From: Planctomycetaceae bacterium
GTDB lineage: Bacteria > Planctomycetota > Phycisphaerae > SM23-33
Assembly: GCA_039680605.1 (NCBI GenBank)
Contig: JBDKTA010000042.1
Coordinates: 1-55,358, forward strand
Direction: 5' to 3'
Length of the DNA: 55,358 nucleotides
Made by a program: the position numbers and the translations under genes. The notes beneath the pieces were generated by a model that was given only the letters and a program-made list of their open reading frames with translations, did no database searches and was not told the DNA's origin. The stretch's first letter is position 1. The number at the start of each line of letters is the position of its first letter. Shown here in pieces: positions 26,742-40,252 of the stretch.

Positions 26742-28247
26742 ATGACAGCCAGACTCTGGGCTCTTTGCGTGACATGGGCATTATTCCTGGCGGCCTCGCC
26801 GGCGTGGGCGGCCTTGCCGCCGGGGTGCGTCGAGTGGGCCGACAATCCCAACTTCGTCCACCCGCCGCTGGCGTGCATGGAACCGTACAAGCGGTTCGTC
26901 GAGTACCCCATCAGCGCCTGGTGCTTCCACGGGATGGAAGACGACAAGAGCCCCTACGCCGAAAAGTTCGTTCGCGACTTCAAGGCCATCGGCTTCAACG
27001 TGCTCATTGACGACGAGCGGATTTTGCCCTTCGCCGAAAAAGTCGGCGGCGTGAAGGTGCAGCTTTGCGGCGCGCGGAGCAGCGCCAAGAGCAAGGCCAC
27101 CTTCTATCAGCCCGCCGAGGTGCTTGACGCGAACTTCTTCAAGAACCCCGCCATCGGCGACCATCCGATGCTGCAGGGCATCATCGTCGGCGACAACGGC
27201 GGCGGCTTCGACCCGCGAGAGGTCAACACGGCCGAGTGGCTCAAGAAGGAGCACCCGCACGTCGTGCCCATTATGTCGCTGTATTCCTACAGCCCGCAGC
27301 AGGGCAATACGCCGCTGCGCATCCTGCACATGCAGAGCTATCCGTACATGCCCGGACGCCGCGGCTACAGCACCGGCCGGGCGGCGCGGCGCTACTGCGA
27401 GCAGCTCGAGCGCGACCGGCAGTTCTGTAACGCCAATGACATGGCCCTGTTCGAATGCTACGCCGGCGACACGACCTTCACCTGCGTGCGATTCCAGATG
27501 ATGTGCGCGATGGCCTACGGCGCCCAGGGGATCTCGAACTTCTGCTACTCGCCTCATCGCATGCCCGCCTACAAGCCCGACAACCCGCTGGTGCCGCAGT
27601 GGTACAAGCTGCACCGATACACCATCGACGTGCTCGGCCGGCACCTCTGGGGCACGCGCAGCATCGAGGTTCTCGGCGGTGAGCACGCCTCCGCCAAGAC
27701 CTTCGGCCCGGACCAACTCGTCGTCGCAGCCTCCGAAAACCTGATGGCCGGGCTGCTGACGCCCGAGGTCCGCTTCAAGGCCAAGGACACCGCTGTCCCT
27801 GAGTACATCCTCGTCGTCGACAAGCGGGTCAACTTCAAGCCATACGAGCCGGACAAGGATCCGCCGGCCCAGGAATCGTCCGTGATGCTGGCGGCGAAGA
27901 TTCCCGCTGTCGAGGTGCTCGACGCCGAGGCCACGAAGGACGCCAAGATCCGCAAGATCGTACCGGGTTTCAAAGTGCGTTTCACCGCCAGCGGCGGCGA
28001 GGCGGTGCTGTTGCGCGCCGCGCCGGACCTGGAGAAACTGCTGGGCGGCAAGGACGCCCTGGCGCTGTATACTCAGATCAACACCGCCCTGGCCGCGGCG
28101 ATGCAGAAGCCCGATGAGATCGCCAAGGCCGTCGCGGCCGCCAAGGCCGACGCGGCGAAGCTCAGGGGCCTCATGAAAGACGTTGACGCCGCCCAGGCGG
28201 CAGACACGCTTAAGCGGCTCGATGCCGCCATCGACGCGGCGAAGTAG
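26742..28247 (+). CDS. Secreted tandem paralogue 1, TIM-barrel-like, function unknown
   Basis: A 501-residue exported protein, first of three tandem relatives. The signal peptide is MTARLWALCVTWALFLAA; AGGA 7 bases upstream supports ATG 26742 over 26712. Landmarks shared by all three are NFVHPPL, AWCFHG, GFNVLIDD, HPMLQGIIVGDN, FECYAGDTTFTCVRFQM and AYGAQGISNFCYSPHR. The central part resembles uncharacterised TIM-barrel glycosidase-like proteins whose HPxLxGYxLxDEP motif is here HPMLQGIIVGDN, with the Glu missing. A beta-rich domain (about 310-430) and two C-terminal helices follow. No family is recognised with confidence. Confidence 0.75.
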   Translation: MTARLWALCVTWALFLAASPAWAALPPGCVEWADNPNFVHPPLACMEPYKRFVEYPISAWCFHGMEDDKSPYAEKFVRDFKAIGFNVLIDDERILPFAEKVGGVKVQLCGARSSAKSKATFYQPAEVLDANFFKNPAIGDHPMLQGIIVGDNGGGFDPREVNTAEWLKKEHPHVVPIMSLYSYSPQQGNTPLRILHMQSYPYMPGRRGYSTGRAARRYCEQLERDRQFCNANDMALFECYAGDTTFTCVRFQMMCAMAYGAQGISNFCYSPHRMPAYKPDNPLVPQWYKLHRYTIDVLGRHLWGTRSIEVLGGEHASAKTFGPDQLVVAASENLMAGLLTPEVRFKAKDTAVPEYILVVDKRVNFKPYEPDKDPPAQESSVMLAAKIPAVEVLDAEATKDAKIRKIVPGFKVRFTASGGEAVLLRAAPDLEKLLGGKDALALYTQINTALAAAMQKPDEIAKAVAAAKADAAKLRGLMKDVDAAQAADTLKRLDAAIDAAK

Positions 28248-28370
28248 CACGGGCGTCTCGCCCGTGCCGTTGAAGAAAAAGCGCAAGCTGACCCGATGGG
28301 TGCCACGCACAACTCCGTTGTGCGTGTCCCCGGTCTCTGGCATCAGAGAGCATGGGCGAGACGCCCGTGC
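28247..28370. repeat. Composite palindromic repeat between paralogues 1 and 2
   Basis: GCACGGGCGTCTCGCCCGTGC (28247-28267, overlapping the paralogue 1 stop) and its inverse-oriented relative at 28350-28370 bracket a GGGTGCC hairpin unit (28298-28330). The same order appears at 30050-30175. Confidence 0.8.
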
Positions 28371-28393
28371 CACACAGCAAAGACGAGGTAGTC

Positions 28394-30046
28394 ATGAACA
28401 GTTTTCGAACCCTCAGTGCGATTCTTCTCATGCTTTCCTGCGGCCGCGCCTTGGCCGACGACAAGGTTCCCGATGAACCGCCTCCGCCAATGAAGCAATG
28501 GCCTGCCGGCTCGGGCGTCAAGGAGTGGAAAGACACCGACTTCGTCCACCCGCCGATCAAGGCCCACGAACTGTATAAGCGGATGCATGAGTTCCCCATC
28601 AGCGCCTGGTGCTTCCACGGCCAGAAGGGCCAGTCGCCCTATGCGGAGAAGTACGTGCGCGACTTCAAGGCCGTCGGGTTCAACGTCATGATCGACGACC
28701 CGAAGATCATCCCCTTCGCCGAGAAGGTCGGCGGCGTGTGGGTGCAGATCGGCGAGACGCGGACAATCTTCGGCAAGAGCCCGCAGTACCTGGAAGACTA
28801 TGTCTTCAAGGGCGCCATCGGCGATCACCCGCTGCTGCAGGGCATCATCCTGGGCGACAACGGGCGCGGCTTCGGCGGCAACGAGCGGCGCGTGGCCTCC
28901 TGGCTCAAGAAAGACCATCCGCACGTGGCGCCGATCATGTCGATCTATCCCTGCCGCGTGCCGGCAGACACCGACCTGCGCATCCTCCACATGCAGAACT
29001 ACCCGTACCTGCGCGGCGCCCGCGGCGAAAAGGCCGCCAATGCCTACCTCGGCCAGTGCAACAGCGATCGCAACGTCGCCAACAATAACAAGATGGCCAT
29101 GTGGGAATGCTACGGCGGCGACGCGCCGTTCAGTTGCGTGCAGTTCCAGATGATCGGCGCCATGGCCTACGGGGCGCAGGGTCTGTCGAACTTCTGCTAC
29201 TCGCCCCATCGCATGAAAGATTACAAGCCCGACAGCCCGATGATCCCGCAGTGGCATAAGATGCATCAGTACATCATCCACGTGCTCGGCCGCCACGTCT
29301 GGGGGCTGCGGTCGATGGACGTGCTGCACTCGGTCTGCGGCGGGGCGCACAAAGGCGCCGGCGTCTACGATGCGGGGCAACTGGTCCTGCGCGGCAGCGA
29401 GTTCACCATGGTCGGCCTGCTGACCCCCGAGGCGAAGTTCTACTCCGACAACGCCGCCGACCGTGAGATTCCCGAGTACTTCATGCTCGTCGACAAACGC
29501 ACCGGCGGCAACATCCCCGAGGCTCGACCGGCGAGCATCATGCTCTCGCCGAAAGTCTCCGCCGTCGAACTCATCGACGCCAATGCGACCAAAGACGCCA
29601 AGATCCGCCAGATCGTGCCGGCTTTCAAGGTGCGACTGACCATGGAAGGCAGCTACGGCGTGCTGCTGCGCGTGGCGCCGGACATCGAGACGCTCCTGGG
29701 CGGACCCGACGGCGCCAAGCTCTACGCGAAGATCAACACGGCGATGGCCGCCCTGCAAGCCAAAGCCACCCCGCCCGCCCCGGCCGGTCAGACCCGATTG
29801 GGCGCCGAAGGCCCGGCCGCCAAGCCCGAAGGCGACCTGCCTCTGGTCAAGGTCAACGCCGCCGAAGTCGACAAGACCATCGCGGCCGTCAAGACCGATA
29901 TGGCTGAGCTGGCCAAAGCCCTCGACGCCGCCGTCGCCGCAGGCAAGATCAGCAAAGACCAGGCCGTCGATACGCTCAAGCGCCTGGGTGAAGCTATCGA
30001 CGCCACAGCCGCCGAGGCCAAGGACCCCAAGCCCAGCGCCGCGTGA
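28394..30046 (+). CDS. Secreted tandem paralogue 2, TIM-barrel-like, function unknown
   Basis: A 550-residue exported protein; the signal peptide is MNSFRTLSAILLMLSCGRALA. It shares the landmarks of its neighbours: DFVHPPI, AWCFHG, GFNVMIDD, HPLLQGIILGDN, WECYGGDAPFSCVQFQM and AYGAQGLSNFCYSPHR. GRHVWGLRSMDVLHS and a beta-rich domain follow. The C-terminus is longer than in paralogue 1, with an Ala/Pro linker and helices ending in DTLKRLGEAIDATAA. Ribosome site GAGGT is 6 bases upstream. Strong similarity to the two neighbours indicates recent duplication within this locus. Confidence 0.75.
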   Translation: MNSFRTLSAILLMLSCGRALADDKVPDEPPPPMKQWPAGSGVKEWKDTDFVHPPIKAHELYKRMHEFPISAWCFHGQKGQSPYAEKYVRDFKAVGFNVMIDDPKIIPFAEKVGGVWVQIGETRTIFGKSPQYLEDYVFKGAIGDHPLLQGIILGDNGRGFGGNERRVASWLKKDHPHVAPIMSIYPCRVPADTDLRILHMQNYPYLRGARGEKAANAYLGQCNSDRNVANNNKMAMWECYGGDAPFSCVQFQMIGAMAYGAQGLSNFCYSPHRMKDYKPDSPMIPQWHKMHQYIIHVLGRHVWGLRSMDVLHSVCGGAHKGAGVYDAGQLVLRGSEFTMVGLLTPEAKFYSDNAADREIPEYFMLVDKRTGGNIPEARPASIMLSPKVSAVELIDANATKDAKIRQIVPAFKVRLTMEGSYGVLLRVAPDIETLLGGPDGAKLYAKINTAMAALQAKATPPAPAGQTRLGAEGPAAKPEGDLPLVKVNAAEVDKTIAAVKTDMAELAKALDAAVAAGKISKDQAVDTLKRLGEAIDATAAEAKDPKPSAA

Positions 30047-30049
30047 GTA

Positions 30050-30208
30050 GCATGGGCGTCTCGCCCATGAGGCGAAGAAGAGACGAAAGCTTGGATCAGA
30101 CGGGTGCCACGCACAACTCCGTTGCGCGTGTCCCTGACCGTGAAGAGCCAGAGAGCATGGGCGAGACGCCCATGCCACACGGCGAGAGCATGGGCGAGAC
30201 GCCCATGC
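30050..30208. repeat. Composite palindromic repeat between paralogues 2 and 3
   Basis: GCATGGGCGTCTCGCCCATG (30050-30069) is followed by a GGGTGCC hairpin unit (30102-30134) and then by two tandem copies of GCATGGGCGAGACGCCCATGC (30155-30175 and 30188-30208). The second copy ends 14 bases before the paralogue 3 start. Confidence 0.8.
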
Positions 30209-30222
30209 CACGAGGAGTCATG

Positions 30223-31815
30223 ATGCAGCATCGCGTAATCGTTATCGGGCTGGTTCTTGCCGCTGCTGTGCAGGCCGCCCCGGCCGGCGACCAGCTGCCT
30301 CCCGGCTGCAAGGAATGGAAAGACACCGACTTCGTCCACCCGCCGCTGAAGGTGATGGAGCCGTACAAGCGGATCGACGAGTACCCGGTGGTCGCATGGT
30401 GCTTCCATGGGCAGGGGGCCAAGCGCGTGCCCTACGACGAGACGTACGCCCGCAACGCCAAGGCCGCCGGGTTCAACATGCTCATCGACGGCGCGTCGAT
30501 GCTCGAACCGTGCCGGAAGGTCGGCGGGCTGAAGGTCGTCGTGCCAGCATTCCACCACGGCCCTGACCGGCTTAAGGCCGGCATCTTCGGCCCCCACGGC
30601 GACCACCCGTGCCTGGTCGGCATCGTCACCGACGACAACAACCCGCGGATCTATCCCAACGTCATCGAAAACGCCAAGTGGATCACGCAGACCTATCCGC
30701 ACATCATGCCCTGGGACAGCGAGAACCCCGACCCGCGCACCCAGAGCAAGACCACCATGCGCGTCCTGGGCACGCAGAACTACCCGTTCATGCGCGGCTC
30801 GCGGAACCCCGTCGGCGACTACTGCTTCAACTGCTGGGTCGACCGCGACTGGGGCGTCAAGGCCGACATGAGCGTCTGGGAAATCTACTCCGGCGCCAAT
30901 GCCTTCAACCAGCAAAGCTTCCAGATGCTGGCCGGCCTGGCCTACGGCTCGCAGGGACTGGTGAACTTCGCCTACACGCCGCACCGCGACACGCCTTATC
31001 ACGGCAAGATGTACCAGCCCGACAGCCCGCTGATCCCGCAGTTCAAGAAACTCCACGACTATATCCGCCTGGTCGTCGGCCGCCACCTCTGGGGCACGCG
31101 CTGCATCAACGTGATCCACTCCATCCACGGCGGCGACCACAGCAAGGAGCGCTGGAAGATCCAGGCCCCGACCTTTGCCGCCGACCAGCTCGTCGTCCGC
31201 GGCAGCGAGTGGATGATGGTCGGCCTGCTGACGCCCGAGAAGCGATTCCTCGCCAAGGACACGGAAGTTCCCGAGTACTTCCTGGTCATCGACAAGCGCA
31301 CCAGCGGCGGCGGCGCCCCAGAGCGGCGGGCGGCCTACGTCATGTTCTCCGACCGCACGCCGGTCTTCGAGATGCTCGACGAGACTGCGGTGAAGGACGC
31401 CCCCATCCGCAAGCTCGTCCCCGGCTGGAAGTTCCGCATGAACTCCCAGGGCGGTGAGGGCGTCCTGCTGCGCGTCGCGCCGGACCTCGAGCAACTCCTC
31501 GGCGGCAAGAAAGGCCTCGCGCTGTACGCGGCGATCAACAAGACGATGGGCCAGTTGCAGTGGAAAGTCTCGCCCCCCTGCCCGGCCGGGCAGAAGATCG
31601 AAGAAGACAAGCTCACCCACGTGGCCATTGAGGGCAAGGTGATCGACGCCGCCGTCGCCCAGGCCCGCAAGGACCGCGACGCCCTGGCCAAGCTGCTCGA
31701 TGCCGCCGTATCGGCCGGAAAGCTCACCAAGGCCCAGACCGACGACACGCTCAAGCGGCTTGACGAGTCCATCGCCGCCACCGCCGCCCAAGCCAAAACC
31801 CCGCCAGCCCCGTAG
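30223..31815 (+). CDS. Secreted tandem paralogue 3, TIM-barrel-like, function unknown
   Basis: A 530-residue exported protein, signal peptide MQHRVIVIGLVLAAAVQAAPA; GAGGAG is 5 bases before ATG 30223, with ATG 30220 as the alternative. It keeps DFVHPPL, VAWCFHG, GFNMLIDG and the domain boundaries, but the middle is more diverged: HPCLVGIVTDDNN, WEIYSGANAFNQQSFQM and AYGSQGLVNFAYTPHR. The FCYSP Cys of the other two is Ala here. It has the same beta-rich domain and C-terminal helices (DTLKRLDESIAATAAQ). It is the most divergent of the three, so possibly different in substrate. Confidence 0.75.
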   Translation: MQHRVIVIGLVLAAAVQAAPAGDQLPPGCKEWKDTDFVHPPLKVMEPYKRIDEYPVVAWCFHGQGAKRVPYDETYARNAKAAGFNMLIDGASMLEPCRKVGGLKVVVPAFHHGPDRLKAGIFGPHGDHPCLVGIVTDDNNPRIYPNVIENAKWITQTYPHIMPWDSENPDPRTQSKTTMRVLGTQNYPFMRGSRNPVGDYCFNCWVDRDWGVKADMSVWEIYSGANAFNQQSFQMLAGLAYGSQGLVNFAYTPHRDTPYHGKMYQPDSPLIPQFKKLHDYIRLVVGRHLWGTRCINVIHSIHGGDHSKERWKIQAPTFAADQLVVRGSEWMMVGLLTPEKRFLAKDTEVPEYFLVIDKRTSGGGAPERRAAYVMFSDRTPVFEMLDETAVKDAPIRKLVPGWKFRMNSQGGEGVLLRVAPDLEQLLGGKKGLALYAAINKTMGQLQWKVSPPCPAGQKIEEDKLTHVAIEGKVIDAAVAQARKDRDALAKLLDAAVSAGKLTKAQTDDTLKRLDESIAATAAQAKTPPAP

Positions 31816-31836
31816 CACGGGCATCTTGCCCGTGGC
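31815..31836. repeat. Single copy of GCACGGGC hairpin repeat
   Basis: GCACGGGCATCTTGCCCGTGGC directly follows the paralogue 3 stop and overlaps it, matching the repeats after paralogues 1 and 2. A single degenerate arm of the TGGAGTGCGG family lies further on at 31958-32000. Confidence 0.65.
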
Positions 31837-36048: not shown

Positions 36049-37464
36049 TTATCCCTTCTTCGCATTCCGGCGGGCGGGGCGGTTCTGTTTGGGGTTGGGC
36101 AGGATGGGGTACTTCTCGACCTGCGTCAAGACGCACCACTGGGCCAGCAGCTTGCGGTGGCGGTCGATCTCGGCGGCCGTGTTCGCCTCGGCGGCGATGT
36201 TCTTCATCTCGCCCGGGTCGGCCTGCATGTCGAAGAACATCTCGGCCTTGGGCCCCTCGTGAAAAACCATGTACTTGTACCTGCCGGTGCGGATCATGAA
36301 GCTGCGCGCCTGGCCCACCGCCATCTCGGAGGCGACGTACGCCTGCCCGGGCGCCTTGGGGTCGTCGATCACGCCGCGCAGGCTGCGGCCGCGCGACGCC
36401 GGCGGGGCGTCCACGCCGGCGTAGTCGCACAACGTCGGCAGCACGTCCAGGGCGGAAACGAGATGGTTCCTGTCGGTGCGGCCGGCGGGGATCACGCCCT
36501 TCCAGCTCATCAGCAGGGGGACGGCGGCCGCGTCATCATAGAAATGCAGCTTGCCCGTCCAGCCGTGGCAGCCCAGCCCCTCGCCGTGATCGCTGGTGAA
36601 AACGATCAGCGTGTCCTCTTCCCGCCCGGACTGGCGCAGGGCTTGCAAGAGGCGGCCGATCTGGCGGTCGACATCCTCCATCATTCGATAGTACGCGTAG
36701 CGATACCGCCGCCAGCGATGGGCGACCCAGTCGCCATGGCGGGCGCGCCGTGCCTGGGACTGCGGCGTGCCCTGGCTGAGGGCGTGGTTGTCCGGCAGCG
36801 GCGGAAGATCGGCCCCGTCCTGGGGCCCGTAGCGAGCCCACAGTTCGTCGGTCAGGTTGTTGGTATTGGCCAGCAGGCAGATGTCGTGCGGGTTGATGAA
36901 CGACGCCGTCAGCAGGAAAGGCTTGTCCCGCCGGCGGCGCAGGAAACCGATAGCCGCCTGCAGCGTCGACTCGTCGACGACGCGGGCGAGCTTGCCCATG
37001 CGCGTGCTCGTGTTGAGCACGTCATAGCCGGCGATGCCGCCCTCGGGATACGGATTGGGCAGGTGCCATTTGCCCGCATACCCGGTGTCGTAGCCGGCGG
37101 CGCGGAAAATCTGCCCCGAGATCGGGATCGTGCGGTCGATGGACATGCTGTTGTGGTCGACCAGCAGTTCGTGCGGCGCGCGGGCGGTGTGCAGGGCCGC
37201 ACGCGACGGGCTGCACAGCGGATACGGGCAGTACGACTGCATGAACGACACGCCGCCGGCCGCCAGGGAGTCCATCGCCGGCGTCTTGACCCAGCGGTTG
37301 CCCGAGGCGCTGGTGGCGTCGATGCGCTGCTGGTCGGTGGTGATGATGAGGATGTTCGGCCGCCGCCGCTGCGGTGCCGCGACGGCAAACTGACCCACCG
37401 CCAGCGCCGCCGCCCCGGCCGCCGAGGCCCGAATGAACTGCCGCCTGCTGATCTGTTCTTGCAT
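36049..37464 (-). CDS. Exported type I sulfatase
   Basis: A 471-residue formylglycine-dependent sulfatase. The Tat-type signal is SRRQFIRASAAGAAALAV. The modified Cys84 lies in CSPSR, upstream of AALHTAR; the metal site residues are ITTDQQR at the start and VFTSDHGEGLGCHG near 300. GKWHLPNPY is the conserved lysine/histidine strand. The TDQQR form is typical of one sulfatase branch. Substrate is probably a sulfated polysaccharide fragment. No sulfatase-maturing enzyme is in the window. Confidence 0.92.
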   Translation of the reverse strand: MQEQISRRQFIRASAAGAAALAVGQFAVAAPQRRRPNILIITTDQQRIDATSASGNRWVKTPAMDSLAAGGVSFMQSYCPYPLCSPSRAALHTARAPHELLVDHNSMSIDRTIPISGQIFRAAGYDTGYAGKWHLPNPYPEGGIAGYDVLNTSTRMGKLARVVDESTLQAAIGFLRRRRDKPFLLTASFINPHDICLLANTNNLTDELWARYGPQDGADLPPLPDNHALSQGTPQSQARRARHGDWVAHRWRRYRYAYYRMMEDVDRQIGRLLQALRQSGREEDTLIVFTSDHGEGLGCHGWTGKLHFYDDAAAVPLLMSWKGVIPAGRTDRNHLVSALDVLPTLCDYAGVDAPPASRGRSLRGVIDDPKAPGQAYVASEMAVGQARSFMIRTGRYKYMVFHEGPKAEMFFDMQADPGEMKNIAAEANTAAEIDRHRKLLAQWCVLTQVEKYPILPNPKQNRPARRNAKKG

Positions 37465-38617: not shown

Positions 38618-40252
38618 CTACGCGTCGTCGGGTTCGGTTTTGCTTGATCCTTTCCAGATATCCACCGGCACGTCGTTGCTTTGGGGTCGGCCGGGCGTGG
38701 AGCGGCCGGCGTCTACCAGGCGCTGCAGCAGAGCTGAGAGGGTCTCGACCACGTCGGCGCGCTCGGCATGGAGGTTGGTGCGTTCTCCGGGGTCGGCTTG
38801 CATGTCGTAGAGCTGGATCGAGGGCAGGCCCAGTTTGGCGGCCTCGGCGTCGTTGGGCGAGGCCCATCCGCCCGAACCGCCGCAGAGCACGAGCTTCCAC
38901 TTGCCGCTTCGGATGGCGAACTTGCCGGTGATCGAATGATGCACCACGTGCTCGCGCACGGGGCGGTCTTGCCCTTGCAGCAGCGGCAGGAGGCTGACGC
39001 TGTCTTCGCCGGCGGTGTCGGGCAGCGGCTGGGCGGTGATCTGCGAGCAGGTGGCCATCAGGTCGCTCAGGCAGACCGTCTGATCGCACGTCCGCCCGGG
39101 CTTGACCACGCCCGGCCAACGCGCAATGAACGGGATGCGATGGCCGCCGTCCCAGGCGTCGGCTTTGTACCCGCGATACTGTGCGCTGGGAAAATGCCCC
39201 TTGGCTTCCATCTCGGGCACGCCGATGTAGGGCGCGCAGCCGTTGTCGCTGGCGAACATCACGATGGTATTGTCGGCCGCACCGGATTGCTCCAGGGCGT
39301 CCAGGACGCGCCCGACGATGGCGTCGGTCTCCATGACGAAGTCGGCGTAGAGGTTGAGGCCGCTCTTGCCTTTCCATTCGTCGTTGACGGCCAGGGGCGT
39401 ATGCGGCGAGGTCAGCGGCATGTAGAGGAAGAACGGGTTGGGCTGGCGGGCCTGGCGGCGGATGTAGTCGCCGGCCCGCTGGGCGTAGGTGGGCAGGAGC
39501 TGCTCGAAGTTCCAGCCCGCCAGGGCCGGCCCGGGAATGCTGCCCTGATTGTTGCCGATCAGGCGCGCGGGTAGAAACTCCGTCGGGATCCCGACGGTGC
39601 GGTCGTTCTCGATGTAGCAGTACGGCGGCCAGTTGGGCACGTCGGTGCCGAAGTAGTAATCGAACCCTCGCGTGGTCGGCCCGCCGGTGGTCGGCTTGGA
39701 AAACGCCTCTCGCCACAGGGCCTGCTGCTGCGGGGTCGCCGGCGTGGCGCCCTTGGAACGATCGGGCACGAAATCGATCGTGGGCTCGAACGCCCAGCCC
39801 TGCCCCAGGTGCCACTTGCCGATGCAGGCGGTGGCGTATCCGCTCTGCTTGAGCAGCCCGGCGACGGTCAGGCGGTCCGGGGCGATCAGCGGGTCGCCAT
39901 AGACGCCGACGATCCCGCTCTGCAGCCGCGTTCGCCAGTTGTATCGCCCGGTCAGGACGCCGTATCGCGACGGGCTGCAGACCGCCGACGTCGCATGGGC
40001 GTCGGTGAACCGCATGCCCCCGGCGGCGAGGCGGTCGAGATGGGGCGTGGGGATTTTCCCCTGGGGGTTGAAGCACGACACGTCGCCATAGCCCAAGTCG
40101 TCAGCCAGAATGTAAATGATGTTCGGTCGGTTATTCGGTTGGCGGTTCATGGCGTTCCTCTCGGTGGCGCAGGAAGGCAGCAGCACACAACCCGCGCCCG
40201 CGGCCGCGGCTTTGAGAATGTCGCGTCGGGAAAGAGACATTTCACGGTTCAT
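38618..40252 (-). CDS. Exported arylsulfatase-type sulfatase (lipoprotein)
   Basis: A 544-residue sulfatase. The start carries a twin-Arg motif (SRRDILKAAAAGAG) and a Cys suited to lipidation (VLLPSC). Metal residues are ILADDLGYGD, the formylglycine Cys92 is in VCSPSRYG, and GKWHLGQGW, FFLYMPLTSPHTPL and MFASDNGC are the other hallmarks. It is unlike its neighbour at 36049 beyond the family, so the two probably attack different sulfate esters. ATG 40240 is an alternative start. The 40253-40620 gap upstream shows only a near-palindrome CCTATACGTGTAGG. Confidence 0.92.
   Translation of the reverse strand: MNREMSLSRRDILKAAAAGAGCVLLPSCATERNAMNRQPNNRPNIIYILADDLGYGDVSCFNPQGKIPTPHLDRLAAGGMRFTDAHATSAVCSPSRYGVLTGRYNWRTRLQSGIVGVYGDPLIAPDRLTVAGLLKQSGYATACIGKWHLGQGWAFEPTIDFVPDRSKGATPATPQQQALWREAFSKPTTGGPTTRGFDYYFGTDVPNWPPYCYIENDRTVGIPTEFLPARLIGNNQGSIPGPALAGWNFEQLLPTYAQRAGDYIRRQARQPNPFFLYMPLTSPHTPLAVNDEWKGKSGLNLYADFVMETDAIVGRVLDALEQSGAADNTIVMFASDNGCAPYIGVPEMEAKGHFPSAQYRGYKADAWDGGHRIPFIARWPGVVKPGRTCDQTVCLSDLMATCSQITAQPLPDTAGEDSVSLLPLLQGQDRPVREHVVHHSITGKFAIRSGKWKLVLCGGSGGWASPNDAEAAKLGLPSIQLYDMQADPGERTNLHAERADVVETLSALLQRLVDAGRSTPGRPQSNDVPVDIWKGSSKTEPDDA

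Follow-up and report, generated by a model that had tools for sequence, protein, structure and literature searches.

Tandem paralogues of a putatively secreted, probably non-hydrolytic GH42-like barrel family in a Planctomycetaceae bacterium

To which family do three adjacent genes for apparently secreted proteins in a Planctomycetaceae bacterium belong, and would their products still cleave glycans? The genes lie in tandem on a 55,358-nucleotide stretch of DNA (the window; Table 1). The original prediction, made from the letters alone, described three exported, TIM-barrel-like paralogues of an unrecognised family that lack the usual catalytic acid, and took the repeats between them as a sign of growth by duplication. 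We followed this up by searches for paralogues and relatives, structure prediction, phylogeny and a comparison of catalytic positions with characterised glycosidases.

The tandem trio and its genomic setting

The three reading frames are intact at the predicted coordinates and encode proteins of 501-550 residues. Their N-termini, read by eye, show a Lys/Arg-containing n-region followed by a hydrophobic stretch, and such signal-peptide-like starts suggest that these proteins and their paralogues are exported. The long motifs said to unite the trio (AWCFHG, HPxLxGI...DN and AYG[AS]QGxxNFxYxPHR) could be found in 3/3 copies, and across about 380 aligned residues the proteins resemble one another far more than chance would allow (E about 1e-136 to 1e-151). 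No match for P0001-P0003 was obtained by sequence in Pfam, NCBIfam or the PDB, which agrees with the description of the family as unrecognised. Matches of window proteins to DUF2586, DUF2680, DUF1707 and others were at chance level, mostly in tail regions, and were discarded.

Table 1. Coordinates of the features discussed in the text.
Feature	Position	Strand	Basis or remark
Paralogue 1 (P0001)	26742..28247	+	ORF and translation; 501 aa, putatively exported barrel protein; beta4 motif HPMLQGIIVGDNGG
Paralogue 2 (P0002)	28394..30046	+	ORF, translation and AlphaFold2 model; 550 aa
Paralogue 3 (P0003)	30220..31815	+	ORF and translation; about 531 aa; beta4 motif HPCLVGIVTDDNNP
D155-N156 codons of P0002 (end of beta4)	28856..28861	+	column comparison; coordinates computed from ORF start
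Composite GTAG-REP-like repeat, copies 1/2	28243..28378	.	part enters in-frame upstream extension of ORF 2
Composite GTAG-REP-like repeat, copies 2/3	30046..30216	.	
Single GTAG-tagged palindrome, end of copy 3	31811..31834	.	overlaps stop codon
Sulfatase (PF00884)	36052-37398	-	downstream of trio
Sulfatase (PF00884)	38621-40186	-	downstream of trio
P0004	contig C33		
P0005	contig C15, L005:631-2844	-	738 aa
P0006	contig C27		
P0007	contig C25		
P0008	contig C36		
BD-FAE/alpha-beta hydrolase (esterase-like)	L081:7976-9244	-	directly adjoins P0006
Sub-threshold GH29 match	L082:5022-6536	-	near P0007
Sub-threshold GH29 match	L082:13452-14342	-	near P0007
DEP family example	L044:1288-2526	+	
DEP family example	L014:1120-2436	+	
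DEP family example	L017:1261-2622	+	

The genome (5.23 Mb, 72 contigs) encodes five further paralogues on other contigs. All eight reading frames are intact (430-738 codons), their GC and GC3 are like those of neighbouring genes, and 22 columns of the eight-paralogue alignment are invariant. P0005 has an additional CHB_HEX_C_1 domain at its C-terminal end (4.8e-12), and also a weak galactose-binding-like match; both are in keeping with a carbohydrate setting. In the phylogenetic tree, the eight paralogues formed a single clade (support 100/100) on a long stem branch. Within it the window trio grouped together (100/99), copy 3 branching next to the pair of copies 1 and 2 (likewise 100/99); identity to P0002 is 56% for P0001 and 47% for P0003, bearing out the proposed graded divergence with the third copy furthest removed.

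Clade members appear to be confined to this genome. A single-sequence search of 150 relatives returned none, and a profile search of class and phylum genomes (overlapping sets of 298, 392 and 397) gave none above 70 bits, where the clade's own members score 510-870 bits and distant relatives at most 70 bits. Scanning 84,980 species genomes and viral contigs with sequence patterns likewise yielded no clade member, the short patterns reaching near relatives only.

Upstream of the trio lie genes for a UDP-sugar dehydrogenase, a beta-CASP nuclease and a D12 methyltransferase, and downstream a PIN protein followed, several kilobases off and on the opposite strand, by two sulfatases. The neighbours of the other paralogues are unrelated, except those beside P0006 and P0007. 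P0006 is directly adjoined by an esterase-like gene, while two genes near P0007 give sub-threshold matches to alpha-L-fucosidases (GH29) and perhaps represent another diverged glycosidase-like family. A polysaccharide-utilisation locus was considered and rejected after the main neighbours of the copies had been checked, as these form no consistent set; no glycan-degradation gene set was found among them.

The composite palindromic repeats reported between the copies were located in both spacers, where GTAG-tagged palindromes in opposite orientation flank a second palindrome. GTAG-REPs are defined by a GTAG tag, a short palindrome, high copy number and an extragenic position (PMC3733652), and the window repeats have all four properties. 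Like GTAG-REPs, they start with GTAG and a GC-rich palindrome, GTAGCACGGGCGTCTCGCCCGTG, and occur as opposite-orientation pairs in high copy; unlike them, they are embedded in a longer composite unit that has a second palindrome, around GCCACGCACAACTCCGTTGTGCGTG, and our assignment is to the GTAG class as a whole with no numbered GTAG family. The 15-mer core of the repeat is present in 179 copies in the genome compared with 0 for a reversed control, and in 18 of 40 genomes searched, the own genome counted. Copies of the composite are scattered across many contigs. Being genome-wide, the repeats are hardly informative on the growth of the cluster, and a repeat-driven duplication was ruled out on the same ground. 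The predicted growth by duplication thus stands because the tandem copies are one another's nearest relatives in the tree, while the repeats fail as its sign. The repeats also extend ORFs 2 and 3 in frame (MGETPMPHG-type starts), so that automatic start calls may be wrong; for P0003, the first plausible starts are the ATG codons at 30220/30223.

Predicted fold and kinship with a GH42-like family

An AlphaFold2 model of P0002 (pLDDT 81.9, pTM 0.85) showed eight barrel strands in order, so that the suspected TIM-barrel-like fold is a predicted (beta/alpha)8 barrel. In this model, the barrel (residues 69-302) is followed by a beta-sandwich (305-426) and a helical tail (431-543), the last of which is present in five of the eight paralogues. 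Matches of the model to GH2, GH5, GH35, GH27, PdxJ and aldolase structures (Foldseek/VIA) were taken as general barrel similarity and not as membership.

An orphan family without relatives could be ruled out, since the paralogue profile reaches a family of proteins with an Asp-Glu-Pro motif on beta4, here called the DEP family. Its members have about 410-560 residues, some more, and show HPAxxGYxLxDEP, then SYDHY, then AYGAKGxxYFTYW. Alignment of the eight paralogues with 22 DEP relatives (hhalign) gave a probability of 99.95% and an E value of 1.1e-37 over 351 columns; the two groups are homologous over their full length, with the same fold order. Besides the examples in Table 1, about 40 other members were seen, and roughly one in ten related genomes contains the family.

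The DEP family in turn resembles characterised glycosidases. Ten DEP relatives were scanned against Pfam and gave no barrel match above cut-off, the best being GH42 at 19.8 versus 21 bits. Searched against the PDB, the family profile finds GH42 beta-galactosidases (3tts, E 1.6e-8). The predicted structure of one relative (m4db6046de272, pLDDT 91.9) aligned over 351 residues with GH42 5E9A (Z 28.7, 3.2 A), and its alignment with GH164 had a Z of about 26.5. This fold match is direct for the DEP relative, the P0002 model itself finding only general GH clan A-like barrels. Similarly, hhalign of the eight paralogues directly against GH42 sequences gave no significant match, so the link to GH42 runs via the DEP family, and the GH42 profile PF02449 did not match P0001-P0003 up to E 10 or P0004-P0008 up to E 1.

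Like the clan GH-A families GH42 (5E9A, 3TTS) and GH164 (Bs164, 6T5O), the window proteins combine a barrel with a C-terminal beta-sandwich, and their DEP relatives align with these structures over the whole model (Z 24-29). GH42 and DEP proteins have common landmarks on beta4 (HPxxxGY...(N/D)E), beta6 (D-x-Y) and beta8 (xGAxGxxxF). Compared with GH42 enzymes, the window proteins have neither catalytic Glu, and the same presumably holds with respect to GH164; they are also shorter than the enzymes of both families (about 500-550 compared with about 650-700 residues). The alpha/beta trimerisation domain of GH42 is absent from the P0002 model, where the sandwich starts at 305 and the last barrel helix ends at 302. 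By sequence profile and model, the window clade is a diverged branch of an unnamed GH42/GH164-like barrel family that is common in the phylum.

Residues lost and gained

In clan GH-A, the catalytic Glu residues are located on strands 4 and 7; in GH42 5E9A these are the acid/base Glu-157 and the nucleophile Glu-314, and the catalytic residues of the GH164 beta-mannosidase Bs164 (Glu-160 and Glu-297) superpose on them (PMC7105311). In our profile alignment, the DEP Glu falls on Glu-157 and a hydrophobic residue on Glu-314, the 5E9A numbering having been checked by counting along the printed alignment. The DEP family thus retains the acid/base without a conserved nucleophile. An Asp-Glu pair on beta4 without a beta7 nucleophile is the layout of substrate-assisted enzymes. 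DEP relatives seem to share this arrangement with GH123/DUF4091-type beta-N-acetylgalactosaminidases, which have a DE motif (PMC11087588), and possibly represent a new family of substrate-assisted glycosidases; no GH123/DUF4091 Pfam match was found for P0001-P0003 or the ten scanned DEP relatives.

The beta4 Asp-Glu pair was found in each of the 33 aligned relatives, and likewise in 9 others and in the genome's own DEP copy (contig C66). This is no selection effect, as the profile used to collect the relatives has no Glu there itself. In contrast to the relatives, and also to GH123-type proteins, none of the eight paralogues has Glu at this position: Asn replaces it in P0001, P0002, P0003, P0005 and P0006, Asp in P0004 and Lys in P0007 and P0008. 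The missing acid (DEP to DNG/DNN) was thereby confirmed for the tandem copies. The preceding Asp155 is retained in six paralogues and lost in P0007 and P0008. Further, the beta5 Asn and the beta6 Asp, each present in 31/33 relatives, are found in 0/8 paralogues, which carry Ser/Ala and Gln/Met/Glu instead. At the GH42 nucleophile position (240 of P0002), the paralogues have Y/I/F/L, and the DEP family is hydrophobic there as well. The only strand 7 Glu is Glu238 of copies 1-3, off the aligned position; in P0002 it lies on beta7 two residues ahead, and the other five paralogues have Pro. Given the superposition of Bs164 and 5E9A, the GH164 catalytic pair is presumably absent too.

These losses are accompanied by gains. 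At position 101, where beta2 ends, 8/8 paralogues have Asp or Glu compared with 0/33 relatives. His75, after beta1, is conserved in 8/8 paralogues in the family alignment and in 7/8 in a wider one, the relatives having no conserved His, and Tyr83 is invariant in all eight. A sandwich insert with an invariant Glu (E346) further sets the clade apart from the DEP family, as does the helical tail of five members. The gained polar residues could form a new site. Together, the eight paralogues appear, from comparisons of sequence, to be a new, genome-restricted clade of putatively exported GH42-like barrel proteins without the catalytic constellation of their relatives.

A probable loss of hydrolysis

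Our preferred reading, to which we assign a probability of roughly 0.55, is that these proteins are a non-hydrolytic, pseudo-glycosidase-like secreted family, expanded in a single lineage and probably glycan-binding. The origin would have been a (beta/alpha)8-barrel family of the Asp-Glu (DEP) type, akin to GH42 and GH164, in which the catalytic acid and surrounding active-site residues were lost before amplification by duplication, including the three copies in tandem. Glycoside hydrolysis by the clan GH-A route was most likely abandoned by the paralogues, and the barrel pocket and C-terminal beta-sandwich may have been retained as a secreted, probably glycan-binding module. Judged from their residues, the proteins probably serve sugar binding or sensing, or some new chemistry, rather than the usual cutting. 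Simple decay into functionless glycosidase relics would account for the lost active-site residues, the fast divergence and, for many pairs, similar pN and pS (pN being at or above pS in several distant ones), but is very improbable given eight intact frames, signal-peptide-like starts that were kept and the 22 invariant columns. In the closest two pairs, pN is well below pS (0.26 vs 0.44-0.45), to be read in light of the fact that dN/dS among the paralogues is uninformative because synonymous sites are near saturation.

Two readings would preserve catalysis. The paralogues may be active enzymes with a moved site, where His75 and the acid at position 101 on adjacent strands, perhaps joined by Asp155, would make up a new site for catalysis or a metal. 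Conserved new polar residues, among them Tyr83, are unexpected in a drifting protein, and so we entertain this alternative tentatively as the main rival, although P0007 and P0008 do not have Asp155. That they constitute a new enzyme family whose active site shifted from strands 4-6 to strands 1-2 (His75, Asp/Glu101) on a GH42-like barrel strikes us as somewhat less likely again. We consider it improbable that they are still glycoside hydrolases in which Asp155, or Glu238 in copies 1-3, replaces the missing Glu. Asp155 does occur in six of eight members and Glu238 lies on beta7, the clan GH-A nucleophile strand; however, neither is kept throughout the clade, and the relatives' flanking Asn and Asp are gone too. 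In addition, GH123-type enzymes almost lost their activity when the Asp of their DE motif was changed, and had reduced activity when the Glu was changed (PMC11087588).

Secreted glycosidase scaffolds that have lost their acid and multiplied, as the preferred pseudo-enzyme reading holds for this clade, are easily misannotated as enzymes. Here, one genome contains an ancestor-like DEP copy together with eight acid-free copies, and many intact relatives exist in sister genomes. With both kinds of copies present, the transition of an enzyme into a pseudo-enzyme, or into a new enzyme, can be tested directly. Should the moved-site reading prove true, the clade would represent new chemistry on a glycosidase scaffold that evolved within one bacterial lineage.
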